Source of the DNA: Geobacter sp. FeAm09 | Lineage (GTDB): Bacteria > Desulfobacterota > Desulfuromonadia > Geobacterales > Pseudopelobacteraceae | Direction of reading: 5' to 3' | DNA: 64,000 bases | NCBI RefSeq assembly: GCF_008330225.1 | Contig: NZ_CP042466.1 | Coordinates: 3,776,001 to 3,840,000 of the forward strand | Shown: positions 3,776-58,806 of the stretch, in pieces | How positions within the stretch are numbered: position 1 is the stretch's first letter | How the letters are laid out: every line of letters begins with the position of its first letter | Program-made: the position numbers and the translations under genes | Notes under the pieces: model-generated | What the model saw: the letters and a program-made list of their open reading frames with translations, nothing else | The model's database searches: none | Told to the model about the DNA's origin: nothing

Positions 3776-4479
<704 letters not shown>

Positions 4480-4504
4480 CCGCCCCTTGCCCTACGTACA
4501 GCGA

Positions 4505-4536
4505 CGCCCTGCCGGGATACCGGCGGGGCGTTTTTT
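4505..4536 (+). terminator. Intrinsic terminator of the liv operon
   Basis: The arms CGCCCTGCCGG and CCGGCGGGGCG form a GC-rich stem with a four-base loop, followed directly by six T. It lies 25 bases after the livF stop. Confidence 0.88.
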
Positions 4537-4546
4537 GTTTGGGGGA

Positions 4547-4924
4547 TCAACAGCTTTGAACCGTAAGGGATGGAATGCCGGAGAAATGAGAATCGTTTGT
4601 GATGATAACGGCTTTGCGGCACAGTGCGGTAGCGCCGATAATTGCATCAGGAAGCTTCAGCCGATGCTGCGTACGCAATGTCAGGGCACTATCTGCAAGT
4701 TCGTCATTATGGACAAGCGAGACGATCTCGATTCTCGAACAAAAGCGTTTGAAACTTTTTCGGTCATTGAGCGTCAAGCCATCAAAGGCGAGGAATTCGA
4801 GGTAGGTAACAACCGAGATGCCGACATAAGCCGCTGCCTCAAGCCGGACAGCCAACTCCCGGTTGCCATTCAAAAGCGATACAACGGCATTGGTGTCGAG
4901 CACATAGCGCAGTTTACCACTCAT
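4547..4924 (-). CDS. vapC: PIN-domain toxin ribonuclease, VapC family
   Basis: A 125-residue PIN-domain protein, the usual VapC size. PIN toxins are metal-dependent ribonucleases that cut tRNA or rRNA when freed from their antitoxin. The acidic active-site residues are visible: D in VLDTNAVVSLLNG near residue 9, E in YLEFLAF near 43, D in LPDAIIGATA near 93, and D in IITNDSHF near 110. Its start overlaps the end of the small upstream gene by 11 bases, the normal vapBC arrangement in which the antitoxin comes first. Confidence 0.85.
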   Translation of the reverse strand: MSGKLRYVLDTNAVVSLLNGNRELAVRLEAAAYVGISVVTYLEFLAFDGLTLNDRKSFKRFCSRIEIVSLVHNDELADSALTLRTQHRLKLPDAIIGATALCRKAVIITNDSHFSGIPSLTVQSC

Positions 4925-5123
4925 CCCGCAAACTCCGTTGAGCAGCTACCGCATCACCCTTCCAGGTCACGGTGCCGCACAGATCGCTGAAACGATAGGA
5001 TGCCGCGGATTTTTTGGCGCCGGCCTGCCGGGTAAGCAGAAACTGGACAAAATCCCGCACCTCGCGGCGCTGGGGAGCAGGGAGTCCGGAAAGATCAAGC
5101 AGATCGGTTGCGGAACGTGGCAT
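4914..5123 (-). CDS. vapB: VapB-type antitoxin
   Basis: A 69-residue protein starting MPRSATDLLDLSGLPAPQRR, with the short amphipathic middle and flexible C-terminal tail (FSDLCGTVTWKGD) of DUF2281-like VapB antitoxins. The ATG at 5123 is chosen over an upstream start because AGGAGGGTGATC precedes it immediately. It overlaps vapC by 11 bases, and should neutralise the PIN ribonuclease and repress the pair. Family assignment rests on context and length, since small antitoxins are divergent. Confidence 0.75.
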   Translation of the reverse strand: MPRSATDLLDLSGLPAPQRREVRDFVQFLLTRQAGAKKSAASYRFSDLCGTVTWKGDAVAAQRSLRDEW

Positions 5124-5211
5124 GATCACCCTCCTTGTTTTCGATGATTTTACGTTAGCATAGAGACCTGATGATGACAAGTTCGTGTTTCGGCCTTAAA
5201 ACCGCGATGGT

Positions 5212-5346
5212 CCACGAAAAACACGAACGGCACGAACAAAGCTGGTTGATTATGGGTAATAGCCTCTTGCCTTTCGGGTGAACGATTCAATTTCGCGTTC
5301 AGACTGGCTGCTCGTTTTCGTTCGTGTTTTTCGTGCATTTCGTGGA
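5212..5346. repeat. Dispersed inverted-repeat element, CACGAA type
   Basis: Two arms face each other: CCACGAAAAACACGAACGG at 5212 and its near-complement, TTCGTGTTTTTCGTGCATTTCGTGG, ending at 5346, with about 80 bases between. Short open frames across it translate to the low-complexity text typical of intergenic repeats (for example FVPFVFFVDHRGF), so I treat it as non-coding. The architecture matches the ACAGAGACACGGAG-type elements near 29.4 and 31.3 kb, although the arm sequence differs. Confidence 0.65.
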
Positions 5347-5474
5347 CAGGTGCCGTTTGGAGTTCGAGGCTTGCGCGAGAGGGTGCGGGACGAAATGATA
5401 CAAAAGGGGCTCCCGGAGGCGGTTTGGGGGCCTTTTTTTGTGTGATGACGGGTGGTTGGGAGGACAGGAGTGGA

Positions 5475-5493
5475 ATGTTAATTTTTTTAACAT
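5475..5493. promoter_or_regulatory. 19-bp palindrome ATGTTAA-N5-TTAACAT (copy 1)
   Basis: A perfect 7-bp inverted repeat with a five-T spacer. A second copy lies 29 bases on and a third at 25197. The size and symmetry fit a dimeric repressor site, but no adjacent regulator gene is evident, and all three copies sit inside a larger repeated block. Confidence 0.55.
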
Positions 5494-5503
5494 GTCGAGG
5501 AGA

Positions 5504-5522
5504 GTGTTAATTATTTTAACAT
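5504..5522. promoter_or_regulatory. 19-bp palindrome, copy 2 (one mismatch)
   Basis: GTGTTAA, spacer TTATT, TTAACAT. The outer base of the left arm differs from the other copies. It is followed by a further half-site-like ATGTTGA. The spacing to copy 1 is 29 bases centre to centre, close to three helical turns. Confidence 0.5.
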
Positions 5523-5749
5523 GTTGATTTTGCGATTGAAATTTGTGGATGCGGAGAGTAGAAGGAGACTGTGCAATCAATGCCCTCTGAAGGGGACATG
5601 TGAGCCGCCGTTGCAGAATCGAATCGGTGTTTTGAAGATAGAGGAATGCAAAATGGATAGGAAGTTGTGTCTTTGGTGCGGAAAGAGTTAGAAATATAAA
5701 TAATGGAGATTTGGCAGTTGTGCTTATCGCCGCTTGCAGGAATAAGGAT

Positions 5750-6436
5750 ATGAGAAGAAAAACAATATCACAAAAAATGAAGATGCTTCTTCAACAAGAG
5801 GTTGAATCTATATGCCCATTTTGTAATAGTAATGATGTTGATCACTTTCAATTTCACCATATTGACGAAAATCCTGAGAATAATACTATTGGTAATATAC
5901 TAATGTTGTGCCCTACTTGCCATTCAAAAATTACTAAAGGTGATATAAGCTTGGCTACAGTTGAAGCTAAAAAACAAGGATTATTAAATAAGTTTTATAA
6001 AAAGGATAAAGAAATGGGTAAAATCATTAATTTTAATGCGAAGGTCGGGAATGCAGTAGTTGGTGACAATAATAAAGTGACACTTAACATAAAAAAAGAT
6101 GTAAAAAAATCAAAATATCCTGAAGGTTGCATTGGAGCAGCTAATGTAAAAGCTAATTACATTAGCTATTTAATTACAAGGTACCACGAATATAAGGAAT
6201 GGGAAGTCGGGAAGGAAAATATGAATTACGCGATCTTCCAATCCGGCTTGAAGAAAAAGTACAAGCTTGGTAAAACTAGAACAATTTATCATGTGCCAGA
6301 GCCTAGATTTGATGAACTTGCTGCCGACATCCAAGAGCGTATTGATAGAACAGTATTGGCAAACGTAAAGCGGTCAAAAGGGCAACATAAGAACTATGAA
6401 ACATTTGAAGAGTACCTTGACGAAACTCAAAGCTGA
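5750..6436 (+). CDS. HNH endonuclease-like protein with a zinc-ribbon core
   Basis: The 228-residue product has an N-terminal HNH nuclease module: C22-P-F-C25, HH at 36-37, N in ENNTIGN, and C54-P-T-C-H58. The four cysteines would hold zinc, and the histidines form the beta-beta-alpha metal site. A segment near residues 100-112 (VGNAVVGDNNKVTLNI) resembles the glycine/asparagine-rich beta repeat found as a linker in many defence and signalling proteins. The C-terminal half is not recognised. The ATG at 5750 follows AGGAATAAGGAT; an upstream TTG at 5711 is possible. The gene is very AT-rich compared with its surroundings and opens the foreign island. DNA cleavage is inferred from the motif only. 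Confidence 0.75.
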   Translation: MRRKTISQKMKMLLQQEVESICPFCNSNDVDHFQFHHIDENPENNTIGNILMLCPTCHSKITKGDISLATVEAKKQGLLNKFYKKDKEMGKIINFNAKVGNAVVGDNNKVTLNIKKDVKKSKYPEGCIGAANVKANYISYLITRYHEYKEWEVGKENMNYAIFQSGLKKKYKLGKTRTIYHVPEPRFDELAADIQERIDRTVLANVKRSKGQHKNYETFEEYLDETQS

Positions 6437-6450
6437 CATAAAAATTGAGA

Positions 6451-6497
6451 GACACCATACCAATTAAAGTATTCATTCATAAAATAGGTATGGTGTC
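6451..6497. repeat. Perfect 11-bp inverted repeat with a 25-nt loop
   Basis: GACACCATACC at 6451 pairs exactly with GGTATGGTGTC ending at 6497. It lies just after the HNH gene. There is no T-run, so a classical terminator is doubtful. It could be a transcript-end hairpin or a regulatory structure between the HNH gene and the receiver/kinase pair. Confidence 0.55.
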
Positions 6498-6636
6498 CCG
6501 GCATTCTACCGATAGGAGCGTTTGGAATTACTACGCAAATGGAAATACTGAGATTAAAGCCCAGCGAAGAGTAAAATGATGGTGTTATGTCCACATATTG
6601 CCAAAATTAATTGTTATCATAATTTTAGGAGGGGAT

Positions 6637-7266
6637 ATGTCGTGGTTTAGTAAACCTTCTTGGCCTGATTACCCATTTGATGAAATTAAAAAGAGAGCAA
6701 AAATACTTGTTGTTGATGATAACGATTTCCCCTACGATAAACTCTTCTCTAGAGATGGTTACACATTTGAAAAGTGGAATGATATTGAAAATCTCCCGAA
6801 ACTAGAAAGCGGATATTATGATATAATACTACTTGATATTAACGGAGTTGGACTTAATGAGTCTGAAGAGCAAGGATTAGGGATATTAAAGCACCTTAGG
6901 AAGACATCTCCATCCCAGATTATTATTGCATATTCAAATGCAGATTGGCCATTAAAATATCAAGATTTTTTTGATATGGCTGATTCAAAACTAGATAAAA
7001 GAAAAGATTATATTGAATTTAAGCAGGTTGTTGACAAGCTCTTAAAAGATAGGTTTTCTCTTGGTTTTTACGTTGATAGAATAATTAAAGCAGCAGGTAA
7101 TTCCATTCCAGATACAGATAAACTTAAAAAAGTTGCTATTGATTCTATTTTAGGTAAAAATACAAAAAAACTTTCAAAATATATTGAGTCGAACACTGAA
7201 AAAAAGGATATCGTTCAAATTATCTTAGGTATCGCACAAGTTGCTATTGGATTGGCGGCATTATGA
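6637..7266 (+). CDS. Response-regulator receiver-like protein with a hydrophobic C-terminus
   Basis: The 209-residue product has a CheY-like receiver at residues 22-140: ILVVDDND with acidic pair D27/D28, phospho-acceptor D67 in IILLDING, S100 in IIAYSNA at the switch position, and a lysine near 118-121. No DNA-binding or enzymatic output domain follows. The last 19 residues (DIVQIILGIAQVAIGLAAL) are hydrophobic and could insert in a membrane or form an oligomer interface. The ATG at 6637 is fixed by AGGAGGGGAT directly upstream. Its stop overlaps the kinase start (ATGA), so the pair is co-translated. AT-rich composition marks it as acquired. Confidence 0.8.
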   Translation: MSWFSKPSWPDYPFDEIKKRAKILVVDDNDFPYDKLFSRDGYTFEKWNDIENLPKLESGYYDIILLDINGVGLNESEEQGLGILKHLRKTSPSQIIIAYSNADWPLKYQDFFDMADSKLDKRKDYIEFKQVVDKLLKDRFSLGFYVDRIIKAAGNSIPDTDKLKKVAIDSILGKNTKKLSKYIESNTEKKDIVQIILGIAQVAIGLAAL

Positions 7267-8393
7267 GTAGTGTTTTTTACTCCCCTTTACCATGCTTCTA
7301 CAAAGAAAGGATGATTTCTGGTTTCCTCTTTGACTGGCCAGATAAATGTAAAATATGCAAAACACAGATTTGCAAATCAGGCAGGATTATGTTGATTTCT
7401 TCCTGCTCGTTTGGTTTTGATTATCTAAAAATATCGGAAGATTTGATTTTGGCAGGTTTTCTTGTAAAAGAGCACACCCCCCAAAACAAATCTCGATCCA
7501 AAAATCTCTCTCGTTTCAAAAATAACATAATTTCCAGAGACCATTATGATTCAATTATTGAGAAAACGAGACTTTCAATTATATCGTTTAATGATCTTAT
7601 TGAATCAGAAAAAAATCTAGCCGTTGAAAAGTATCTCGCTTCAGGAGAGTACAAAAATGATTTTTTTGAGAGAATGAAATTAGAAATTAAAAAGGGACTT
7701 TCATTTGTACATGATTATAAGCAGATTAACGCGCAAATTGTACAAAATATTAATGTCATTATAGAAACTAGATATGATGGCGATACCTTTGATGATAAAT
7801 TAAGTAAATCTACGCATGCTGAAAAAGCTATATACTTTGGTAGCAAATTCCTCCAAGAAAAACTTAATGTAGCAAAGTATTTGTTGCACCCGGAGTGGAT
7901 TAATAGAGAGTCTGAAAAGACATTTTTTAGATTTCATGGCTGCCTCACAAAGTATATTAGGCTTTACAAATATATGTTTGAAGCAAAAAATATTAGTATA
8001 AAAACATTAGGTGAAAGTTACGATAACATATATACAGATCCAGAGATAATTGGTGTTATACCGCATACTTTTTTAGATAATGCTTTAAAATATTCGAAAC
8101 CAAATTCTTCTATAACAATAAACGTCAATAACAATAGAGAAGGAATCTATTTTGCTATTTCTTCTTTTGGTCCATTGATAAAGGATGGTGAAAAGAAAGA
8201 TATTTTTCTTCCGTTTATTCGTGGCAAAGAAGCCGAAAAGATGCAAGAAGAAGGTTCTGGTTATGGGTTGTTTATTGCCCAGGAAATTGCTAAAAGTATG
8301 GGCACAGAAATTAAAGTTCAGCAGGAAACTACTTGCGAGAGTTATGGCTATTTAACCACTTTTTCTGTTGTCTTACCATATGGCCTTGAATGA
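7263..8393 (+). CDS. Histidine-kinase-like ATPase with a cysteine-rich N-terminus
   Basis: The 376-residue product ends in a GHKL/HATPase_c domain: N-box LDNALKYS with N273, SFGPLI at 301-306, the F-box IFLPFIRG, and G2 GSGYGLFIA at 331. A plausible phospho-acceptor H150 lies in SFVHDYKQI before it, in HisKA-like position. Residues 1-140 are not recognised and include C11, C29, C32, C37 and C48, with CKICKTQIC suggesting a small metal site or redox switch. No membrane segment is evident, so it should be cytosolic. It overlaps the receiver gene by four bases. The natural reading is a soluble two-component pair, but the input signal is unknown. Confidence 0.8.
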   Translation: MSSVFYSPLPCFYKERMISGFLFDWPDKCKICKTQICKSGRIMLISSCSFGFDYLKISEDLILAGFLVKEHTPQNKSRSKNLSRFKNNIISRDHYDSIIEKTRLSIISFNDLIESEKNLAVEKYLASGEYKNDFFERMKLEIKKGLSFVHDYKQINAQIVQNINVIIETRYDGDTFDDKLSKSTHAEKAIYFGSKFLQEKLNVAKYLLHPEWINRESEKTFFRFHGCLTKYIRLYKYMFEAKNISIKTLGESYDNIYTDPEIIGVIPHTFLDNALKYSKPNSSITINVNNNREGIYFAISSFGPLIKDGEKKDIFLPFIRGKEAEKMQEEGSGYGLFIAQEIAKSMGTEIKVQQETTCESYGYLTTFSVVLPYGLE

Positions 8394-8479
8394 TGCAAGT
8401 AAGGGCTTGAGGGTAGGTCTCCAAAACTCAAATTTGAAATTTGGCGATTCGACCCAGCAAAAAAAGTCCTAAACAAACA

Positions 8480-8505
8480 AAGCCCCTCCGATGCAGAGGG
8501 GCTTT
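8480..8505. terminator. Intrinsic terminator after the AT-rich island
   Basis: The stem AAGCCCCTC / GAGGGGCTT has a seven-base loop and is flanked by A and T runs. It lies between the kinase gene and the convergent PEP-CTERM gene and could serve both strands. Confidence 0.8.
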
Positions 8506-8589
8506 ATTGTGTGATCCGAAGCAAGCGGCTGGCCGCTCCGGATATTAGTATTATGTCAGATCCCGACCGGCGTTCGCCTTACAACGCTC

Positions 8590-9462
8590 TCAACGCCCGG
8601 CGTCCCCTTTGCCCTTGGAACGGGCACCCAGCCTGGTAGCGTTACGCCTCAGCAGGGCAACGACGGAAACACCCGTCAGCAAAAGGAGCAAGGTGGATGG
8701 TTCGGGGACCACGGTAACCGTGTTGGGTGGCTTGCCCGAACTATAGTTCTTGAAATTATCGGAACCGCCACCGGACACAAAAGGCTGCGGACCGCTGCTG
8801 GGAAAAGACCTCAAGGATTTATCGATCGGCGGCAGCGGTTCATCCTGAAAGGCCACGGTCGGGGGCGTCCGTGTTGCCACATTTCTCGCAGGGGCCACCC
8901 GGCGCGCGGGGCTGTCAACCCGCTCCACGGGGTCGGCACTGGCACTATTGGGGGGCGGAGCAGCGACATAGTCATTGCAGCAGAACGTCCGCACCGTGCG
9001 GGTCCCGTCGGTTATGTACGTATCGCCCTTCGGCAGCTTGACCGGCCGGGACGTCATCCGGATGACATCGTCTTTCCGGTAGCTCACATAGGTCCAGACG
9101 GCGCTGTCCTGTTGGCCGAGGTGGGCGGCCTGCCAGTTGAACCCCTCGAAGTGACTCGCCAGCACGGGGTCTTTCTCGACCGTGTTTCGGAAATCCTTTA
9201 CCGAATGGATACTGTTTTTGGCGCACAGCCCGTAGTATTTGCCCGCTATCTCGCTCGTGGCGCTCGCCGGCTCCTCGACGGCCGGTTCCGGTATTTGTTG
9301 CTCCTGAACGACCTGTACCGGTGTTTTCCGGGCGACAATGTCGTTATTTTTGAAAAAAGAACGAACGAAGATGCCGGATGCAAGCAAAACCGCGATGATG
9401 ACAGCCCAGCGGATATAGCCCGTAGCCGCCTTTGTTGGCTTATGATTTTTTGTCGTTGGCAT
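8590..9462 (-). CDS. PEP-CTERM sorting-signal protein with an N-terminal membrane segment
   Basis: The 290-residue product ends with a PEP-CTERM tripartite signal: VPEPST, a hydrophobic stretch LLLLLTGVSVVALL, then basic residues. This signal is recognised by exosortase, which sorts proteins to the cell surface or exopolysaccharide. Near residue 16 is a membrane helix (WAVIIAVLLASGIFV). The middle is proline-rich and has no recognised domain, apart from a cysteine pair in TFCCNDY. The ATG at 9462 follows AGGCGGTGA. It is unusual that 20 basic-rich residues follow the PEP-CTERM helix. No exosortase gene is in the window. Confidence 0.75.
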   Translation of the reverse strand: MPTTKNHKPTKAATGYIRWAVIIAVLLASGIFVRSFFKNNDIVARKTPVQVVQEQQIPEPAVEEPASATSEIAGKYYGLCAKNSIHSVKDFRNTVEKDPVLASHFEGFNWQAAHLGQQDSAVWTYVSYRKDDVIRMTSRPVKLPKGDTYITDGTRTVRTFCCNDYVAAPPPNSASADPVERVDSPARRVAPARNVATRTPPTVAFQDEPLPPIDKSLRSFPSSGPQPFVSGGGSDNFKNYSSGKPPNTVTVVPEPSTLLLLLTGVSVVALLRRNATRLGARSKGKGDAGR

Positions 9463-9547
9463 GGTATCGGTTCACCGCCTTACGTTAGCCATTGGGGTTG
9501 CTTGGCTCTCAATGAATACTCAACAACACGCGAAACACCCCGTAAAT

Positions 9548-10816
9548 TTAATTGCTTGCCAAGCTCATCGTCGCCTGGACGGGCCCTGCCGGGTCGGATT
9601 CGGTGCCAAGCCAGATTATTGCGTAGTTCTTGTAGACCCCTACCCCCAATGCGGCGAGCTTGCTGCCGGCCCATTGACCCTTTTCCAGCAGGATTGCATT
9701 GTGGCTGGGGCTTTTTTTCCAGGCCTCCAGCACTCTTTTCGGGTTTATTTCCTTCTCGGAGGTGGAGTACGCATTCTCATACCCATCGCCCGTGTAGGTA
9801 AAATTGGTGATTTCCCGTGGCTTATCCCACATGTACTCGGCATATTTGTTGTCTTTTGTGTAACAGACCTGGCGCCAGTTCCCCTTGTCCGACCAGCTAT
9901 GGAGCGAACAGCCCAAGCCGCGGTCATCGCGCCCCTCCGCAGGGGCATTGGAATAAAGATCGATGGCGTGGACCCGGGCGACCTTGGTCAAGGAGCGCGA
10001 ACTCTCGATGGCCGGCAAACCGTTTTCCTGGCGGTATTCGTTGATGAGATCCCATAATTCCAGCTCTTTTTGGGAAAAACGGGAAAACTGCCGGGATTCG
10101 TGTAGCACGCTTTGAATCATGTTCTTGGGGCCGGTATCCGTTTCGGCCGTCCCCGCTTCGCCCGATTCAACGGAAGATAGCGAAATAATGGCCGCCAACG
10201 ATGCCGTGACGAGCATCTTCTGCAGCTTGATGCCATGTGCGACACCGGATGCGGAGACGTACCCCTCGTCAATGAGGATCTCGCCTAATTTCTTGTGGGA
10301 CGTTTTCTGCTTGTGTAAGGCGTATTCCAGGTTTGCCCGGGTGATCTGGCCCGTTTCCACCAGCAAGTCGCCAAGGCGCAGCGGCGAAGCCGTTGCCTTG
10401 CCCTGGTTGGACTGGAAGCTCAAGATCGACTGCAACGGCAGTTCCGTCAACATCCCCAAACGGACAAAAACATCGCCGATTTTCTCGCCGGAGCATTTCT
10501 GCTCCGCCAGGGCGAAATCCAACTGATCCTGCGTTATGTAGCCGGACTGGAGCAACAGATCGCCCAACATCTGGCGTTCGCCCGCAGCGATTTCACCCGC
10601 ATCAGTAATGTTTGCCAACTTTGCCTGCAAGGTTGACGGGACGGTGATATCCGGCGACTTCAGGATGCCGATCCTGGACAAAACCTGGCCCAACAGGTTT
10701 TTCGTGGTCCGCTGCACATTGCGAGCAAAACCCGATGTCCTGTGGGCTGGATACGTTCCGCCACCATTGAAATCGTCGTCTGATTTTCTAGCTGCAAATC
10801 CCATGCGAAGCCTCAT
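9548..10816 (-). CDS. MshEN-like N-terminus fused to an exported CAP/SCP domain
   Basis: The 422-residue product has two tandem modules of the GspE-N/MshEN type near residues 80-200 (LGDLLLQSGYITQDQLDFAL and LGDLLVETGQITRANLEYAL, each followed by a second helix pair). Such modules can bind cyclic di-GMP. A hydrophobic segment follows (MLVTASLAAIISLS), then a CAP/SCP domain (ELELWDLINEYRQENGLPAI, HAIDLYSN, LHSWS, ENAY, SPSHNAILLEKGQ, LGVGVYKNYAIIWLGT). The arrangement suggests a cytosolic sensor tied to an extracytoplasmic CAP domain. ATG at 10816 or 10804 are both possible, and a TTG at 10855 is less likely. A short gap separates it from the PEP-CTERM gene in the same direction. Confidence 0.75.
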   Translation of the reverse strand: MRLRMGFAARKSDDDFNGGGTYPAHRTSGFARNVQRTTKNLLGQVLSRIGILKSPDITVPSTLQAKLANITDAGEIAAGERQMLGDLLLQSGYITQDQLDFALAEQKCSGEKIGDVFVRLGMLTELPLQSILSFQSNQGKATASPLRLGDLLVETGQITRANLEYALHKQKTSHKKLGEILIDEGYVSASGVAHGIKLQKMLVTASLAAIISLSSVESGEAGTAETDTGPKNMIQSVLHESRQFSRFSQKELELWDLINEYRQENGLPAIESSRSLTKVARVHAIDLYSNAPAEGRDDRGLGCSLHSWSDKGNWRQVCYTKDNKYAEYMWDKPREITNFTYTGDGYENAYSTSEKEINPKRVLEAWKKSPSHNAILLEKGQWAGSKLAALGVGVYKNYAIIWLGTESDPAGPVQATMSLASN

Positions 10817-11104
10817 TTTGCGGACAGAGCCATCCGCCAGCCCACCATACAACAATGCTTGTTAGCAAGTATAACAGCATATATTGTAGACTGAAAGCCT
10901 TTTTTTGACATAAAACGCGGAAATTCCGGGTACATCCATGACACGCCAGGGGAAAACGGCGATTTTCACGGCGTTCCCAAGCGGCGGCGGGCAGCGGCCA
11001 ACGGGCCGGCGCATGCCGCCACCGCCCGACTGCGGGGCCCCCGGTTATCCGGCAAGCCGCCGTGTTTGAGCCTATCAAACCCGTGAGGCCAAAAACAAAA
11101 CAGC

Positions 11105-11134: not shown

Positions 11135-11149
11135 GGGCCATATTTGAAA

Positions 11150-11396
11150 GGCAACGAAGAGGAGTAGTAGTCGTTTCAGGCTTCCCAGAGAGCCGGTGGT
11201 TGGTGCGAACCGGTAAGCGTGATCGATGAACTCGCCTCAGAGCCGCTTCGGTGAACCTATGGCTAGCCGAAGCCGTCCTCCCGCGTCAAGGGTGAATCGA
11301 GGCCCGGCAGGTCGGTTGTGCCGGGTGAAAAGGGTGGTACCGCGAATGTGCTGATAAAGCCTTCGCCCCTGTGTGGGGCGGAGGCTTTTTTTATTT
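11150..11396 (+). ncRNA. T-box leader (leucine-tRNA-sensing riboswitch)
   Basis: The T-box sequence AGGGTGGTACCGCG is present at 11331-11344. Stem I shows the GCCGGTGGTTGGTGCGAACCGG region and a likely specifier CTC (leucine) in GAACTCGCC near 11230. A terminator stem (AAGCCTTCGCCCC / GGGGCGGAGGCTT with a T-run) ends near 11394. Uncharged leucine tRNA should bind the specifier and T-box, favouring the antiterminator and leuA expression. The specifier is consistent with the downstream gene. Confidence 0.93.
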
Positions 11397-11527: not shown

Positions 11528-13099
11528 ATGGCAAAGGCACCGACGAAAAAACAGAAGCAGGACGACCGGCAACTCATCAGGATTTTTGACACCACGCTGC
11601 GGGACGGCGAACAGGCCCCCGGCAACAGCATGAATATCGAAGAAAAACTGCGGGTGGCAAAACAGCTCCTGAAGATGAACGTGGACGTGATCGAGGCCGG
11701 CTTTCCCATTGCTTCCGAAGGCGATTTCGAGGCGGTCAAGCTGGTGGCCCAGCAGATCAAGGGACCCCAGATCGCCGGCCTGTGCCGCGCGGGCGACAAG
11801 GACATCGACCGGGCCTGGGAGGCCCTGAAGTATGCCGGGGACAAGGGGCGCATCCACACCTTCATCGCCACCTCCGACATCCACATGAAGTACAAGCTGA
11901 GGATGGAGCCTGACCGGGTGCTGGCCACGGCCATCAAGGCGGTGAAGCGGGCCGCCTCCTACACCCCCAACGTGGAGTTCTCCTGCGAGGACGCCACCCG
12001 CACCCGCCTGCCGTTTCTGGCCCAGGTGGTGGAGGCGGTCATCGACGCCGGGGCCACCACGGTCAACATCCCGGATACGGTGGGCTACACCATCCCCTTC
12101 GAGTACTTCAACATCATCACCTATCTGAAGGAGCATGTGCGGAACATCGACAAGGCCATCATCTCGGTCCACTGCCACAATGACCTGGGCCTGGCCGTGG
12201 CCAACTCCATCGCCGCCGTGCAGGCGGGCGCCCGCCAGGTGGAATGCACCATCAACGGCATCGGCGAGCGGGCCGGCAACTGCTCCCTGGAGGAGTTCGC
12301 CATGGCCCTGCGCACGCGCCACGACATCCTCCCCTTCACCACCGGCGTGGCCACCGACCAGCTCACCCCTGCCAGCCGGCTCCTGTCCAACATCACCGGC
12401 GTGGGGGTCCAGCCCAACAAGGCCATCGTGGGGGCCAACGCCTTTGCCCACGAGTCGGGCATCCACCAGCACGGCATGCTCATGGACAAGTCCACCTACG
12501 AGATCATGACGCCGGAATCGGTGGGGCTTTCCGCCAGCGCCCTGGTGCTGGGCAAGCACTCCGGCCGCCACGCCTTCAAGCAGCGCCTGGAGGAGTTGGG
12601 CCACGACCTGGACGACGACCGGCTCAACCGGGCCTTCGAGCGCTTCAAGGCCCTGGCCGACCTGAAGAAGGAGGTCTTCGACGAGGACCTGGACGCCATC
12701 GTCATGGAAGAGTCCCGGGAGGACGTGAAGTACAAGCTGGGGCACATCACCGTCACCTGCGGTTCCTTTGCCGTGGCCACCGCCACGGTGCAGCTGGAGA
12801 TCGACGGCCAGCCGGTGCGCACCGCCGAACTGGGGGACGGCCCGGTGGACGCCACCCTCAAGGCCATCAAGAAGCTGACCAAGACCAAGGCCAAGCTGGT
12901 GCAGTACAACGTGGGGGCCATCACCAGCGGCACCGACGCCCAGGGGGAGGTCACCGTGCGCGTGGCCGAGGGGAACAATATCGTGGTGGGCAAGGGCTCC
13001 TCCACCGACATCATCGAGGCCTCGGCCAAGGCCTACGTCCACGCCCTCAACCGGCTGAACATGAAGCAGAAACGCCTCAAGGAAACCGTAACCGTCTGA
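11528..13099 (+). CDS. leuA: 2-isopropylmalate synthase
   Basis: LeuA condenses acetyl-CoA with 2-oxoisovalerate, the first committed step of leucine synthesis in the cytosol. The 523-residue length fits the bacterial type I enzyme. Visible are FDTTLRDGEQAPG near residue 22 (catalytic Arg and metal-binding Asp), SVHCHNDLGLAVANS near 217 (metal-binding His pair), NGIGERAGN, and a C-terminal LeuA dimer domain that senses leucine (KLGHITVTCGSFAVATATV). The ATG at 11528 follows AGGAGCGTAGCG. Expression is governed by the T-box leader 130 bases upstream. Its last 97 bases recur at 14116-14200. Confidence 0.96.
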   Translation: MAKAPTKKQKQDDRQLIRIFDTTLRDGEQAPGNSMNIEEKLRVAKQLLKMNVDVIEAGFPIASEGDFEAVKLVAQQIKGPQIAGLCRAGDKDIDRAWEALKYAGDKGRIHTFIATSDIHMKYKLRMEPDRVLATAIKAVKRAASYTPNVEFSCEDATRTRLPFLAQVVEAVIDAGATTVNIPDTVGYTIPFEYFNIITYLKEHVRNIDKAIISVHCHNDLGLAVANSIAAVQAGARQVECTINGIGERAGNCSLEEFAMALRTRHDILPFTTGVATDQLTPASRLLSNITGVGVQPNKAIVGANAFAHESGIHQHGMLMDKSTYEIMTPESVGLSASALVLGKHSGRHAFKQRLEELGHDLDDDRLNRAFERFKALADLKKEVFDEDLDAIVMEESREDVKYKLGHITVTCGSFAVATATVQLEIDGQPVRTAELGDGPVDATLKAIKKLTKTKAKLVQYNVGAITSGTDAQGEVTVRVAEGNNIVVGKGSSTDIIEASAKAYVHALNRLNMKQKRLKETVTV

Positions 13100-13125
13100 C
13101 CCGTAATCACCCTATTTTCACCCAA

Positions 13126-13154
13126 AAGGCCGGGCGGCGGTTACGCCCGGCCTT
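13126..13154 (+). terminator. Hairpin terminator after leuA
   Basis: GGCCGGGCG and CGCCCGGCC form a nine-pair GC stem preceded by A residues and followed by TTCGG. The U-tract is poor, so termination may be weak. Confidence 0.6.
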
Positions 13155-13334
13155 CGGTCGTTTAAGGGTCCGGTTGTGTGGTGGAGGGGTTGGGGATGTT
13201 TAAATGTCGAATCTGACCGTCGAGTAGTCCGCCAAAACCTGGAACGGTGGAAAAACGCCAAACGCTCCCCATCCTTGATAAGGAGGGGGCCGGGGGTGGT
13301 CGATCCCCCCTTCCCAAACAAAAAACGTCCTGCC

Positions 13335-13369
13335 GGTGGTACTATGATTTTGAAAAACATAGCACCACC
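13335..13369. repeat. 12-bp inverted repeat upstream of hicAB
   Basis: GGTGGTACTATG pairs with CATAGCACCACC with one G-T wobble around an 11-base loop. The rest of 13155-13431 holds no convincing gene. This hairpin and the hicA operator are the only structures I see there. Confidence 0.45.
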
Positions 13370-13401
13370 GTGACAGATCATTCAACGCAATTCCTATTGA
13401 A

Positions 13402-13426
13402 GATAGTATCGCAAAGTGATACTATC
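13402..13426. promoter_or_regulatory. Palindromic operator of hicAB
   Basis: GATAGTATC, spacer GCAAAGT, GATACTATC: a perfect nine-base inverted repeat ending five bases before the hicA start codon. HicB antitoxins commonly repress their own operon, and this is the obvious binding site. The position would block ribosome and polymerase access together. Confidence 0.75.
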
Positions 13427-13431
13427 TATCT

Positions 13432-13686
13432 GTGAAAAACAAACATCGCAAAATCCTTGAGGCGATATTTGCCACCCCAGCCCAGGCCGGGATCGACTGG
13501 AGCGACATTGAAGCGCTCCTGATACACCTGGGGGCTGAACGTTTTGAAGGTTCCGGCTCCCGCGTCCGCTTTTTGTTGAATGGGGTCAGAGCCACCTTTC
13601 ACAGGCCGCACCCGCAGAAGGAAACCGACAAGGGCGCGGTGCAGTCGGTGAGGCGATTTTTGGAAACCGGAGGTATCAGGCCATGA
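13432..13686 (+). CDS. hicA: HicA mRNA-interferase toxin
   Basis: HicA toxins are small dsRBD-fold ribonucleases that cut mRNA. The 84-residue product shows the family pattern: HLGAERFEGSGSRVRFLLNG, catalytic histidine region FHRPHP, then KGAVQSVRRFLETGGI. It starts at GTG 13432 immediately after the operator and has no recognisable ribosome-binding sequence, so initiation may be leaderless or weak. It overlaps hicB by four bases (ATGA), which couples toxin and antitoxin synthesis. Confidence 0.9.
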   Translation: MKNKHRKILEAIFATPAQAGIDWSDIEALLIHLGAERFEGSGSRVRFLLNGVRATFHRPHPQKETDKGAVQSVRRFLETGGIRP

Positions 13687-14018
13687 TGGAATATAAAGGA
13701 TACGTGGGCAAAGTCGAGTTCGACGACACTGCCGGGATTTTCCACGGCGAGGTGATCAACACGCGTGACGTCATAACCTTCCAGGGCACCACCGTCGATG
13801 AAATTCGCGGGGCCTTTCAGGAATCCGTTGAAGACTACCTCGACTTTTGCAAGCAACTCGGCCAGGCCCCGGAGAAGCCGTTTACCGGCAAGCTTATGCT
13901 GCGCCTGACGCCCGACCTGCACCGCAAGGCGTTCATAGCGGCTACGCAGGCGGGTAAAAGCCTCAATGCCTGGATTGCCGATCGTATCGGGCAAGGCACC
14001 ACCCCGTTGCATACCTGA
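13683..14018 (+). CDS. hicB: HicB antitoxin
   Basis: The 111-residue HicB has the degenerate RNase-H-like N-terminal domain (MEYKGYVGKVEFDDTAGIFHGEVINTRDVITFQG at residues 2-35, DYLDFCKQLG) and a C-terminal ribbon-helix-helix (LMLRLTPDLHRKAFIAATQAGKSLNAWIADRI) for operator binding. It should neutralise HicA and repress the operon through the palindrome at 13402. Translation begins within the hicA stop. The pair lies between two copies of the leuA 3' end. Confidence 0.9.
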   Translation: MMEYKGYVGKVEFDDTAGIFHGEVINTRDVITFQGTTVDEIRGAFQESVEDYLDFCKQLGQAPEKPFTGKLMLRLTPDLHRKAFIAATQAGKSLNAWIADRIGQGTTPLHT

Positions 14019-14061
14019 GGGCTTGACTGCCCTGCCCCGGCATTGCTTCGGATTACCCGGC

Positions 14062-14088
14062 AAAGCCCCTCTGGATCGGAGGGGTTTT
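14062..14088 (+). terminator. Terminator of hicAB
   Basis: AAAGCCCCTC and GGAGGGGTTTT form a stem with a short loop, followed by a broken T-rich tract. It lies 44 bases after the hicB stop. Confidence 0.7.
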
Positions 14089-14115
14089 GTTTTAGCCTCT
14101 TTCTCCCCAATCCCC

Positions 14116-14200
14116 CGACATCATCGAGGCCTACGTCCACGCCCTCAACCGGCTGAACATGAAACAGAAGCGCCTCAAGGAAACCGTAACCGTCTGACCC
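14116..14200 (+). repeat. Second copy of the leuA 3' end
   Basis: These 85 bases match 13006-13102 of leuA through the stop codon. The copy lacks 12 bases (TCGGCCAAGGCC) in frame and has two synonymous lysine-codon changes (AAG/AAA and AAA/AAG). It translates to the LeuA tail NMKQKRLKETVTV then stop. The pair acts as direct repeats around the hicAB cassette. Confidence 0.9.
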
Positions 14201-14223
14201 GACCCTCCATCCTTTATCAGCCG

Positions 14224-22374: not shown

Positions 22375-23508
22375 CTATCGCCCCATAGCATCAAGCAAGT
22401 CCTTCACAACTTGTTGAAGTCCCTTTTGAGATGATGTTGCTAATCGGTCGGCAAGGAGTGGCGAGTTAGATCTGACCGTCTCCAAAGCAACATTATGCCA
22501 TACTGGCAAAATAACTTTATTCCCCTCAAATTCTCTAGCTACTAAACCATCTAATTCTTTTTGCGGCCATTCCTTTTGAAGAAATGATTCACTTATCACT
22601 ACTACCCCATATTTTGAGTGAGCCAAACCTTTATCGATTGATCGGCGGAGACTGTCCCCAACACGTAGGGTAAATTCATCAAACCAAACATGAAGACCAG
22701 CATCTTGCAACGCGCTAGCAAGCGGGCGTGCAAAAGCCTCTTTGTCCTCAGATGCATGAGAGATGAAAACGTCCCATTCTTTTTGTGGTTGTTTGGGGGC
22801 TGCTGATGCAGTCTTTTCAACCCGTGAAGACTTTGGAGTCTCAGCCGGAAGGGCCTCTGAAGTTACAACTAACGGTATACCCAAGAGATCAGAAATATCG
22901 TCATGAGCAGACATTCGTTGACGACGTCTGCTTATTGCAGCATATATCTGTCCCGACAATGAAACAGTGATATTTTGGAGTTGGGATGCTTGGCTGGTTA
23001 AGTAAAATTTTATATCGTCAAGAGTTCTTTCATATTGCTGCTTGATTTTCTCTGGGCCTTCATCGATTGGGGTATCAATGATTATTTCAACTGTTCCTTC
23101 TGACTTTCCGTGGGACTCATTGATGTTTGCACATGGAAAGGTAGTGCGCCAAGAGTTCGGGCGAAGTTTCCAAAGACCAGGATCTCCTTTGAAAGGAACC
23201 AATATTCTGACGCGTGTGCCATCTACGTAAAGCGGGCCACCACCTCGATTGAATATATTACGCATAGGGTCACCACTGACATCTATTTTCACCTCTTCCT
23301 TCCGCATTGTTTTCTCGGCTTCAAGAAGCTCTAGTGGTTTGACTGCTAATTGTTCCATTAATTCATTCAACAACTGTTCGTCGGTTGAAGATACGAATTT
23401 TTTAGTGGGAATAGTATCAACTATGTCTTGAGCCTTAGCGAAATGTGCTCGTAGCGTTGCATCAAGGTCGCCTTCTGCAAAAAGATAATTATCCCTGCCT
23501 CTTCTCAT
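22375..23508 (-). CDS. TIR-domain protein, probable NAD-degrading effector
   Basis: The 377-residue product has a C-terminal TIR domain from about residue 245: WDVFISHASEDK, FDEFTLRVGDSLRRSIDKGL, VVVISESFLQKEWPQKELDG. The glutamate in QKELDG sits where bacterial TIR NADases have the catalytic residue. Residues 1-230 are an unrecognised domain that could sense a trigger. ATG 23508 follows GGAGGATGAAGC. Composition is lower in GC than nearby core genes, and an IS30 remnant lies just upstream, which supports acquisition. TIR proteins often act in anti-phage abortive infection, but no partner gene of a named system is adjacent. Confidence 0.85.
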   Translation of the reverse strand: MRRGRDNYLFAEGDLDATLRAHFAKAQDIVDTIPTKKFVSSTDEQLLNELMEQLAVKPLELLEAEKTMRKEEVKIDVSGDPMRNIFNRGGGPLYVDGTRVRILVPFKGDPGLWKLRPNSWRTTFPCANINESHGKSEGTVEIIIDTPIDEGPEKIKQQYERTLDDIKFYLTSQASQLQNITVSLSGQIYAAISRRRQRMSAHDDISDLLGIPLVVTSEALPAETPKSSRVEKTASAAPKQPQKEWDVFISHASEDKEAFARPLASALQDAGLHVWFDEFTLRVGDSLRRSIDKGLAHSKYGVVVISESFLQKEWPQKELDGLVAREFEGNKVILPVWHNVALETVRSNSPLLADRLATSSQKGLQQVVKDLLDAMGR

Positions 23509-25451: not shown

Positions 25452-25757
25452 TTATGCCGGAACCTCTTGCATTGGCTGGATGGTAATAGTCAGCCCCATA
25501 CCGTGGAGCACATTAAACAGGCTGGTAAGTTCCGGGTTGCCCCGCTTCGAAAGCATCTGGTAAAGACTTTCGCGCTTTACATGCGATCTTTCGGCAATTG
25601 CCGCCATGCCGCCGTTAGCCTGCGCCACTTCCCGCAATGCAATCAACATGGCTGACTTGTCGCCATCCTCCAGGACTGCGTTGAGATACGCAGCCGCATT
25701 TTCCGGGGATTTCAGCCACTCGTGAAGATCGGATTCATAATCGGTCATCTGTTTCAT
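25452..25757 (-). CDS. higA: Addiction-module antidote protein, HigA-like
   Basis: The 101-residue product is a helix-turn-helix antitoxin: MKQMTDYESDLHEWLKSPEN, ALREVAQANGGMAAIAERSHVKRESLYQMLSKRGNP near residues 49-83, LGLTITIQP-like tail. It should bind and neutralise the adjacent RelE-fold toxin and repress the operon. ATG 25757 follows AGGAGCAAAGAAA. It overlaps the toxin gene by four bases, the toxin-first order typical of higBA and of the Gp49-like killer/antidote modules. Confidence 0.85.
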   Translation of the reverse strand: MKQMTDYESDLHEWLKSPENAAAYLNAVLEDGDKSAMLIALREVAQANGGMAAIAERSHVKRESLYQMLSKRGNPELTSLFNVLHGMGLTITIQPMQEVPA

Positions 25758-26089
25758 TTTCTTTGCTCCTGATGGTTTTTCCAAAACTTCCGGGCGGTTT
25801 CAATGTCGCGCTGCTGAGTCCCTTTGTCGCCGCCGCACAAAAGAAGAATAATCGTTCCGGCATCTATCGCGTAATAAACTCTGTAACCGGGGCCATGATC
25901 GATTTTCAACTCCACAACGCCTTCACCCACATTGCGGACTGTGCCAAAGTTTCCTGCTTTCACCCGCGTCAAGCGGGCACGTATGCGTACTGCCGCTACT
26001 TGGTCACGCAAGCCTTGCAGCCATTCCCGGAATGGCTTGTTCCCGTGTTCGTCGGTGTAGTAGGCTATCCGGTATGGTTCCGTTTGCAT
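25754..26089 (-). CDS. higB: Addiction-module killer protein, HigB/Gp49-like RelE-fold toxin
   Basis: The 111-residue product matches the phage-derived Gp49-like family: YRIAYYTDEHGNKPFREWLQGLRDQ, RARLTRVKAGNFGTVRNVGEGVVELKIDHGPGYRVYY, ILLLCGGDKGTQQRDIETAR. These toxins are RelE-fold ribonucleases acting on translated mRNA. The start codon lies nine bases from a palindromic operator. It is co-translated with the antitoxin through an ATGA overlap. Confidence 0.87.
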   Translation of the reverse strand: MQTEPYRIAYYTDEHGNKPFREWLQGLRDQVAAVRIRARLTRVKAGNFGTVRNVGEGVVELKIDHGPGYRVYYAIDAGTIILLLCGGDKGTQQRDIETARKFWKNHQEQRK

Positions 26090-58688: not shown

Positions 58689-58731
58689 CGGGGGGCGTTC
58701 GCCTGCGCTTGAGGGCGGCCCCTCTTCGGGC

Positions 58732-58806
58732 CCGGCGATGGAGTTCGCCGCAACCGCTTGCCAAAGCTGATGACTCCTGCCTTCACCTGCGAGGCAGGAG
58801 TTTTTT
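58732..58806 (+). ncRNA. Fluoride riboswitch (crcB motif)
   Basis: GGCGATGGAGTTCGCC, then AACCGC, then CTGATGACTCCTGCC matches the crcB motif. The 3' part overlaps an intrinsic terminator (ACTCCTGCC / GGCAGGAGT and six T) at 58773-58806. Fluoride binding should stabilise the aptamer and prevent termination, switching on crcB 114 bases downstream. Confidence 0.93.

Follow-up and report, generated by a model that had tools for sequence, protein, structure and literature searches.

A 64,000-nucleotide stretch of the chromosome of Geobacter sp. FeAm09 (the window; contig NZ_CP042466.1, positions 3,776,001 to 3,840,000) holds, in an AT-rich segment, two overlapping genes that encode a receiver protein and a histidine kinase, and we give roughly even chances to the reading that this pair is an anti-phage module of two genes, horizontally mobile and related to PDC-M43, a candidate listed in PADLOC. 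The pair is real and foreign, and it is probably defensive. We infer its defensive role from context, because the pair matches PDC-M43, related pairs are carried on plasmids and viral contigs, and a congener carries a Thoeris-like TIR pair after livF, at the same site. For the pair, this context sustains the first-pass annotation of the sequence, which had proposed a signal-gated defence or conflict system; the part of that proposal which tied the signalling to a neighbouring nuclease is not sustained. The relevant features are as follows, with positions counted from the first letter of the window.

About 4541-11088, no strand: variable segment from livF to the T-box leader of leuA, defined by comparison with congeners.
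5393-5565, no strand: repeat dispersed in the genus, bordering the AT-rich stretch on its left, with DNA matches in its own genome and in congeners.
5750-6436, plus strand: HNH endonuclease-like gene, conserved in its C-terminal part, with ATG start and Pfam HNH match.
6451-6497, no strand: perfect 11-base inverted repeat between the HNH gene and the receiver-kinase pair, a possible terminator or operator.
6637-7266, plus strand: gene for the receiver protein of 209 amino acids, ATG start, with a REC domain, four C-terminal helices and a hydrophobic tail.
7263-8393, plus strand: gene for the histidine kinase of 376 amino acids, with a Cys-rich N-terminus, an H-box and a HATPase_c domain.

The sharp drop in base composition between about 5.6 and 8.4 kb that had been noted earlier is confirmed by the GC profile and computed means, with a G+C fraction of 0.335 over positions 5566-8440 vs. 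0.624 for the remainder of the window. The HNH, receiver and kinase genes lie in this order, all on the plus strand, and their presence is borne out by Pfam matches and by the AlphaFold model of the receiver. It should be noted that the receiver and kinase, previously described as orphans, form an overlapping pair in which the kinase start overlaps the receiver stop by 4 bases. The HNH gene is separated from this pair by 200 bases that hold the 11-base inverted repeat (fold z -3.79).

On Pfam Response_reg the receiver scores an E-value of only 0.015, which is under the cut-off. Its AlphaFold model (mean predicted local distance difference test, pLDDT, of 72) comprises a REC domain at about residues 14-136 followed by helices at 142-156, 160-171, 176-185 and 190-208. 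The REC part matches solved receivers in a PDB structure search (E about 1e-5), and for the C-terminal helices, where model confidence is lower (block means 55-69), the PDB list contains nothing informative beyond REC. The last 15 residues form a hydrophobic tail with a mean Kyte-Doolittle value of 2.43. The kinase carries HATPase_c at residues 270-373 (E 2.8e-12 by Pfam), and alignment and motif place its H-box His at H150. Together with D27, D28, D67 (in a DINGVG motif), S100 and K121 of the receiver, the full canonical set of two-component residues (DD, D, S/T and K in the receiver, H-box His in the kinase) can be recognized in the sequences. In agreement with the earlier annotation, the N-terminus of the kinase is rich in Cys, with five in the first 48 residues (C11, C29, C32, C37 and C48, the last one in CSFGF), and no sensor domain was matched in this protein; the Cys-rich region may bind metal or sense redox. 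The absence of a DNA-binding output also agrees, as no such domain was matched in either protein and the receiver has no Pfam match beyond REC, whether DNA-binding or enzymatic.

Pairs of this family recur in nine other loci, namely four plasmids, four viral contigs and one unverified gut contig:

L032: Phaeobacter inhibens plasmid.
L052: E. coli IncF plasmid.
L053: 6-kb Kosakonia plasmid.
L126: Shewanella baltica plasmid.
L051: human-gut contig, deposited as unverified 'Bacteriophage sp.'
L055, L057, L058 and L065: IMG/VR contigs; L055 and L057 are near copies, each counted among the nine.

Seven further loci (L056 and L059-L064), out of a set of ten, show a kinase-like match but no receiver of the window-receiver family, and were excluded from the count. 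In all nine loci, a related kinase gene lies downstream of the receiver gene, on the same strand, with a gap of -8 to +2 bases in eight cases and 113 in one. All ten receivers, including that of the window, share D-x-x-G-V-G at the phosphoacceptor Asp and a following Tyr-Ser/Thr, while the H-box His aligns in 7 of the 10 kinases and is seen as a motif in those of Kosakonia and Shewanella. A tree was built from the ten pair receivers and ten generic ones; the latter were taken from the window receiver's matches in the phylum (14 chosen, 10 used; L005 was omitted for want of coordinates, and L012, L015 and L030 for a stop in translation). The ten pair receivers fall on one side of a branch with support of 100/98, and the window receiver falls between three M43-type receivers and the other six. 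The G+C fraction of the pairs is 0.29-0.35 in nine of the ten loci and 0.44 in Phaeobacter, vs. 0.36-0.61 for the whole loci with the pair included, the difference being small in L051, L058 and Shewanella.

Within the class, the receiver family is present in 1 of 277 genomes, which is that of FeAm09 itself. Across the phylum, the receiver query finds matches in 96 of 395 genomes at E≤1e-3 (own included), and these are ordinary receivers, the best other match being 9.8e-7; the kinase profile at 1e-8 picks up ATPases in 359 of 390 genomes, FeAm09 counted, and is uninformative beyond the FeAm09 copy. Further viral scans gave no new pair locus, and querying plasmids and phages with further receivers added Shewanella alone to the loci already found. 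No receiver-kinase relatives more than 50% identical to the window pair were found in these searches. In E. coli genomes, no match was found to the nucleotide sequence of the E. coli plasmid pair, which is odd for an E. coli plasmid record, and the collection may omit records.

The nearest named system is PDC-M43, of which the window pair appears, by sequence comparison, to be a divergent relative. Against PADLOC-DB 2.0.0, the window receiver matches PDC-M43A with an E-value of 6e-20 (69.9 bits; model positions 73-198 of 203, i.e. REC only), and the kinase matches PDC-M43B with 3.2e-18 (64 bits; positions 180-321 of 347, i.e. the ATPase half), to which general kinase similarity could contribute. 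The M43A match is specific, since its model (PDLC04646) has matches in none of 14 control genomes and in one place in the own genome; the control genomes were run for the M43A model. Three of the plasmid-borne relatives score higher, with 145, 157 and 292 bits against M43A for the E. coli, Kosakonia and Shewanella receivers, respectively, and 226 and 438 bits against M43B, over nearly the whole model, for the E. coli and Shewanella kinases, the two of these three that were scanned. The receivers of Phaeobacter, L051, L055 and L065 match M43A in part only, as the window receiver does. The window pair shares with PDC-M43 the arrangement of two adjacent genes with the receiver directly upstream of the kinase, the DxxGVG motif and, relative to generic receivers, the same side of the branch. 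It differs in being matched over the REC and ATPase regions only, and in having a Cys-rich kinase N-terminus, which is absent from the E. coli, Kosakonia and Shewanella kinases. Moreover, in the receivers of these three the hydrophobic segment is N-terminal and the REC domain C-terminal, whereas the window receiver has the reverse order, and we therefore call the window pair a relative and not a member of PDC-M43. The earlier statement that this is not a described system is thus wrong in part: PADLOC already lists a related candidate, of which the window pair is only a divergent relative.

The surroundings of the other pairs point to mobile carriage. Four pairs are plasmid-borne, and three of these plasmids are typed conjugative. 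Among the viral contigs, the L055 pair adjoins an integrase gene, the L065 pair lies between an amidase gene and a tape-measure gene, and the L058 pair starts 577 bp past a portal gene, at the contig end; one of the four IMG/VR contigs carries a phage-type repressor. The surroundings of L058, where PHROG names are limited to portal, terminase, scaffold or protease, look P2-like in our own reading. A defence hotspot between gpA and the portal gene gpQ is among the features reported for P2-like phages (PMC9122126); no gpA is visible near the L058 pair, and its position is in agreement with the hotspot without being proof of it. These phage settings, as well as the hydrophobic tails of some receivers, would also be expected if the pair were a prophage superinfection-exclusion or lysogeny module that was captured by the chromosome and protects the element rather than the cell. 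The chromosomal and plasmid copies lack adjacent phage genes, however, and the mechanism of such a module would largely overlap with that of an anti-phage module; we regard this explanation as improbable.

The chromosomal site itself supports a foreign origin. The distance from livF to the T-box leader of leuA is about 90 bp in congener G395, vs. about 6.5 kb in the window; thus, the site is empty in one congener and otherwise filled in others. In G396, it holds 3.7 kb of other genes, one with a PLD domain; the 4 kb found there in G398 include an AT-rich gene for a Ser/Thr kinase and a gene for a PIN toxin. G399 matches the window at about 90% identity up to position 5545 and then diverges; the matching part includes the VapBC toxin-antitoxin genes (4547-5180, minus strand), which occupy the same place in G399 with 94-96% protein identity and have no match in the site stretches of the other four congeners. 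In G397, livF is followed by an AT-rich set (G+C fraction 0.405) that includes Thoeris-like genes for a TIR-SLOG protein (4.3e-59) and a ThsB-like TIR protein (2.1e-57), while the PEP-CTERM and CAP genes found at 8590-10855 of the window are located elsewhere. Of the five congeners, then, one has clear defence genes at this locus, another has a possible one, and at least two have toxin-antitoxin genes. The gap between livF and leuA is a variable locus for foreign genes in the genus.

The repeat at 5393-5565 has many copies in the genus, and segments of 5180-5760 are matched at 10 further places in the FeAm09 genome. In G397 and G398, the repeat occupies the corresponding place, with 75 bp between its end and the TIR gene of G397, and 116 bp between its end and the AT-rich Ser/Thr-kinase gene of G398; it is also found in G399 and partly in G396, and is not found in the empty G395. 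Its place before AT-rich cargo may mark insertion points. As a separate observation, G397 carries beside its Thoeris-like TIR genes, in this chromosomal variable locus, a nucleotide-modification set (L119, 7224-13935, minus strand) that consists of genes for Nmad2, a dCTP deaminase-like protein, thymidylate kinase, a 5-hmdU DNA kinase helical domain and thymidylate synthase.

The HNH gene probably stands outside the pair, as a neighbour in the same foreign stretch. Its product matches Pfam HNH with 3.1e-5, above the cut-off of that family. The zinc ribbon previously ascribed to it comes down to two CxxC pairs inside the HNH match, with zinc-ribbon Pfam matches under the cut-off, and the supposed GDNN-type repeat is a single VVGDNN motif that is not kept in three aligned relatives. 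Relatives were found in 15 of 395 phylum genomes at E≤1e-3 (own included), eleven of them over about 100 residues or less; longer matches are limited to three loci (L108-L110), plus a Novosphingobium plasmid copy (L054). In a three-gene system, the phosphorelay would license the HNH nuclease, for which the shared strand, the common AT-rich stretch and the intact HNH motif could be cited. Linkage fails in both directions, which is the outcome that the earlier annotation had itself named as refuting a common system: the HNH family profile is found in 0 of 9 other pair loci (flanks of about 1-10 kb per side; L058 stops at the contig end), and none of the 4 stretches of 9-19 kb around L108-L110 and L054 is matched by the receiver or kinase profile. 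The gap of 200 bases with its inverted repeat also speaks against a joint system, as do the DNA methylases beside two of the four HNH relatives. The three-gene system was thus rejected, and nuclease gating by the phosphorelay seems improbable.

A plausible role for the HNH gene is in defence or restriction, separately from the pair, since two of its four relatives adjoin DNA methylases and all lack the pair; its product would then be a nuclease that works on its own, perhaps in restriction or defence. The near full-length relatives, with 39% and 34% identity, lie in G254 and G091, and the G254 cluster also holds HerA, SIR2 and SNF2 genes. There, a methylase stands beside the HNH gene, whereas none was found in the window among the seven proteins at 4547-10855 to which the scan was limited.

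How the pair might act can be outlined from established two-component chemistry. A soluble kinase would sense an infection-linked cue, in this case through its Cys-rich N-terminal domain, and would autophosphorylate on His150, from which the phosphate would pass to Asp67 of the receiver; both steps are suggested because the residues are conserved and this chemistry is established. Phosphorylation would then alter the helical C-terminal part of the receiver, whose hydrophobic tail may sit at or enter the inner membrane. As there is no output domain, a membrane-acting C-terminal part is the simplest output, and the receiver itself could be the effector, by damaging the membrane, arresting growth or excluding phage DNA. 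We put forward only tentatively, and with considerable doubt, such a cytoplasmic immune switch, in which the phosphorylated receiver (REC, four helices and tail) is the membrane effector and infection is sensed as a metal or redox cue by the Cys-rich kinase N-terminus. If true, this would add to defensive two-component signalling a second architecture, one that is effector-less and has spread on prophages and plasmids.

The lack of a recognized effector domain can be read in another way, namely that this is an ordinary accessory two-component pair, mobile for non-defence reasons, whose receiver influences host regulation or membrane stress through protein contacts, in the manner of single-domain receivers. 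Such receivers occur widely in host signalling, the C-terminal helices have no informative counterpart beyond REC in the PDB, and several pairs have no adjacent defence gene. We nevertheless consider such a role unlikely in view of the sporadic occurrence of the receiver family in the class, its cargo-like positions in viral contigs and the TIR defence genes that a congener carries at the same site. Should the pair defend, a plain phosphorelay without enzyme or DNA-binding output can be an immune system, and PDC-M43 would gain a wider family, the conserved residues His150 and Asp67 and a membrane hypothesis.

Several observations weigh against a defensive module of this kind. At the level of the family, identity of the window proteins to their relatives is only 18-31%, the branches of the receiver tree are long, with a warning from the program of false joins, and the L058 kinase has no His at the aligned H-box place. 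As for the mechanism, the hydrophobic segment, judged by hydropathy average alone, is C-terminal in the receivers of the window (2.43), Phaeobacter (2.01) and L051 (1.66), N-terminal in those of Kosakonia (2.81), E. coli (2.61) and Shewanella (2.07), and weak at either end in four of the ten (L055, L057, L058 and L065; best 0.59-1.52), so that membrane action may not be general. The structure model of the kinase is poor (pLDDT 52) and was left out of the fold searches. Its Cys-rich N-terminus, with C-[PS]-[FY]-G-F, is common to the pair kinases of the window, L051 and L065 and is lacking in the other seven of the ten; it also occurs in the unpaired kinase of L031, a 16.4-kb contig that carries no receiver of the window-receiver family. 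Not all neighbourhoods suggest defence: the genes immediately next to the E. coli pair code for IS3 and Tn3 transposases, and pentapeptide, DUF3800 and NACHT genes follow further out; around the Phaeobacter pair lie transport and conjugation genes, and around the L051 pair, judged by eye, polysaccharide genes. At the chromosomal site, the cargo of G396 and G399 includes no clear defence gene besides VapBC, and leuA of G397 lies beyond the 19.5-kb stretch taken. The PADLOC matches of the G398 kinase (mad6, the best, with 4.8e-36, and PD-T4-6 with 5.3e-30) cover the protein-kinase domain only and may be generic; in weighing defence, this weakened reading of the G398 gene is countered by the repeat that it shares with other AT-rich cargo. 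Finally, the literature search found no paper that names PDC-M43 and no phage test of any pair member, and the PDC systems are described as products of guilt-by-embedding that are mostly unvalidated (PMC12988326).

On the L031 contig (Desantisbacteria), at 4082-8696, the Cys-rich kinase is divergent from three other genes, which by eye encode STAS/ATPase-like, phosphoribosyltransferase-like and methyltransferase-like proteins.

Other known systems were compared with the pair. Detocs holds a kinase and a receiver. By its name and glossary entry, it is a two-component system put to use in defence; it is presented as a three-gene family that is best described with a PNP effector (PMC11249213). 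In the window, no PNP or other effector domain was matched in the HNH, receiver or kinase proteins, and the PADLOC scan of the pair gave no Detocs match (the library's content of Detocs models was not checked); identity with Detocs was rejected, as a third gene with an effector domain was not found. The linked receiver-like and soluble kinase-like genes of Response_reg_2/HEF_HK, which are reported near restriction-modification systems (PMC8011034), resemble the window pair in their linkage. PF19192 and PF19191 are not listed for the pair at E-values up to 1, with filters that drop most matches above about 0.1, and this identity was rejected as a different family by Pfam. REC and HATPase also appear in a figure legend among the predicted systems of the DefensePredictor paper (PMC13092281).

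Several features were observed elsewhere in the window. A T-box leader precedes leuA at 11145-11373. At 13029-14201, HicAB toxin-antitoxin genes (13432-14018) are flanked by a 75-nucleotide direct repeat, 97% identical, that is derived from the leuA 3′ end and looks like the product of an integration that copied this end of the gene. A gene for a TIR-domain protein (22375-23508, minus strand; Pfam TIR_2 1.7e-22) sits in another region of low GC (about 0.43); it is likely another defence gene, judging from its PADLOC matches to PDC-S66 (9.4e-63), PDC-S54 (1.1e-37) and ThsB (8.5e-37). A toxin-antitoxin-like pair of the Gp49-like and dnstrm_HI1420 families is located at 25452-26089 (minus strand), and a fluoride riboswitch at 58725-58786.

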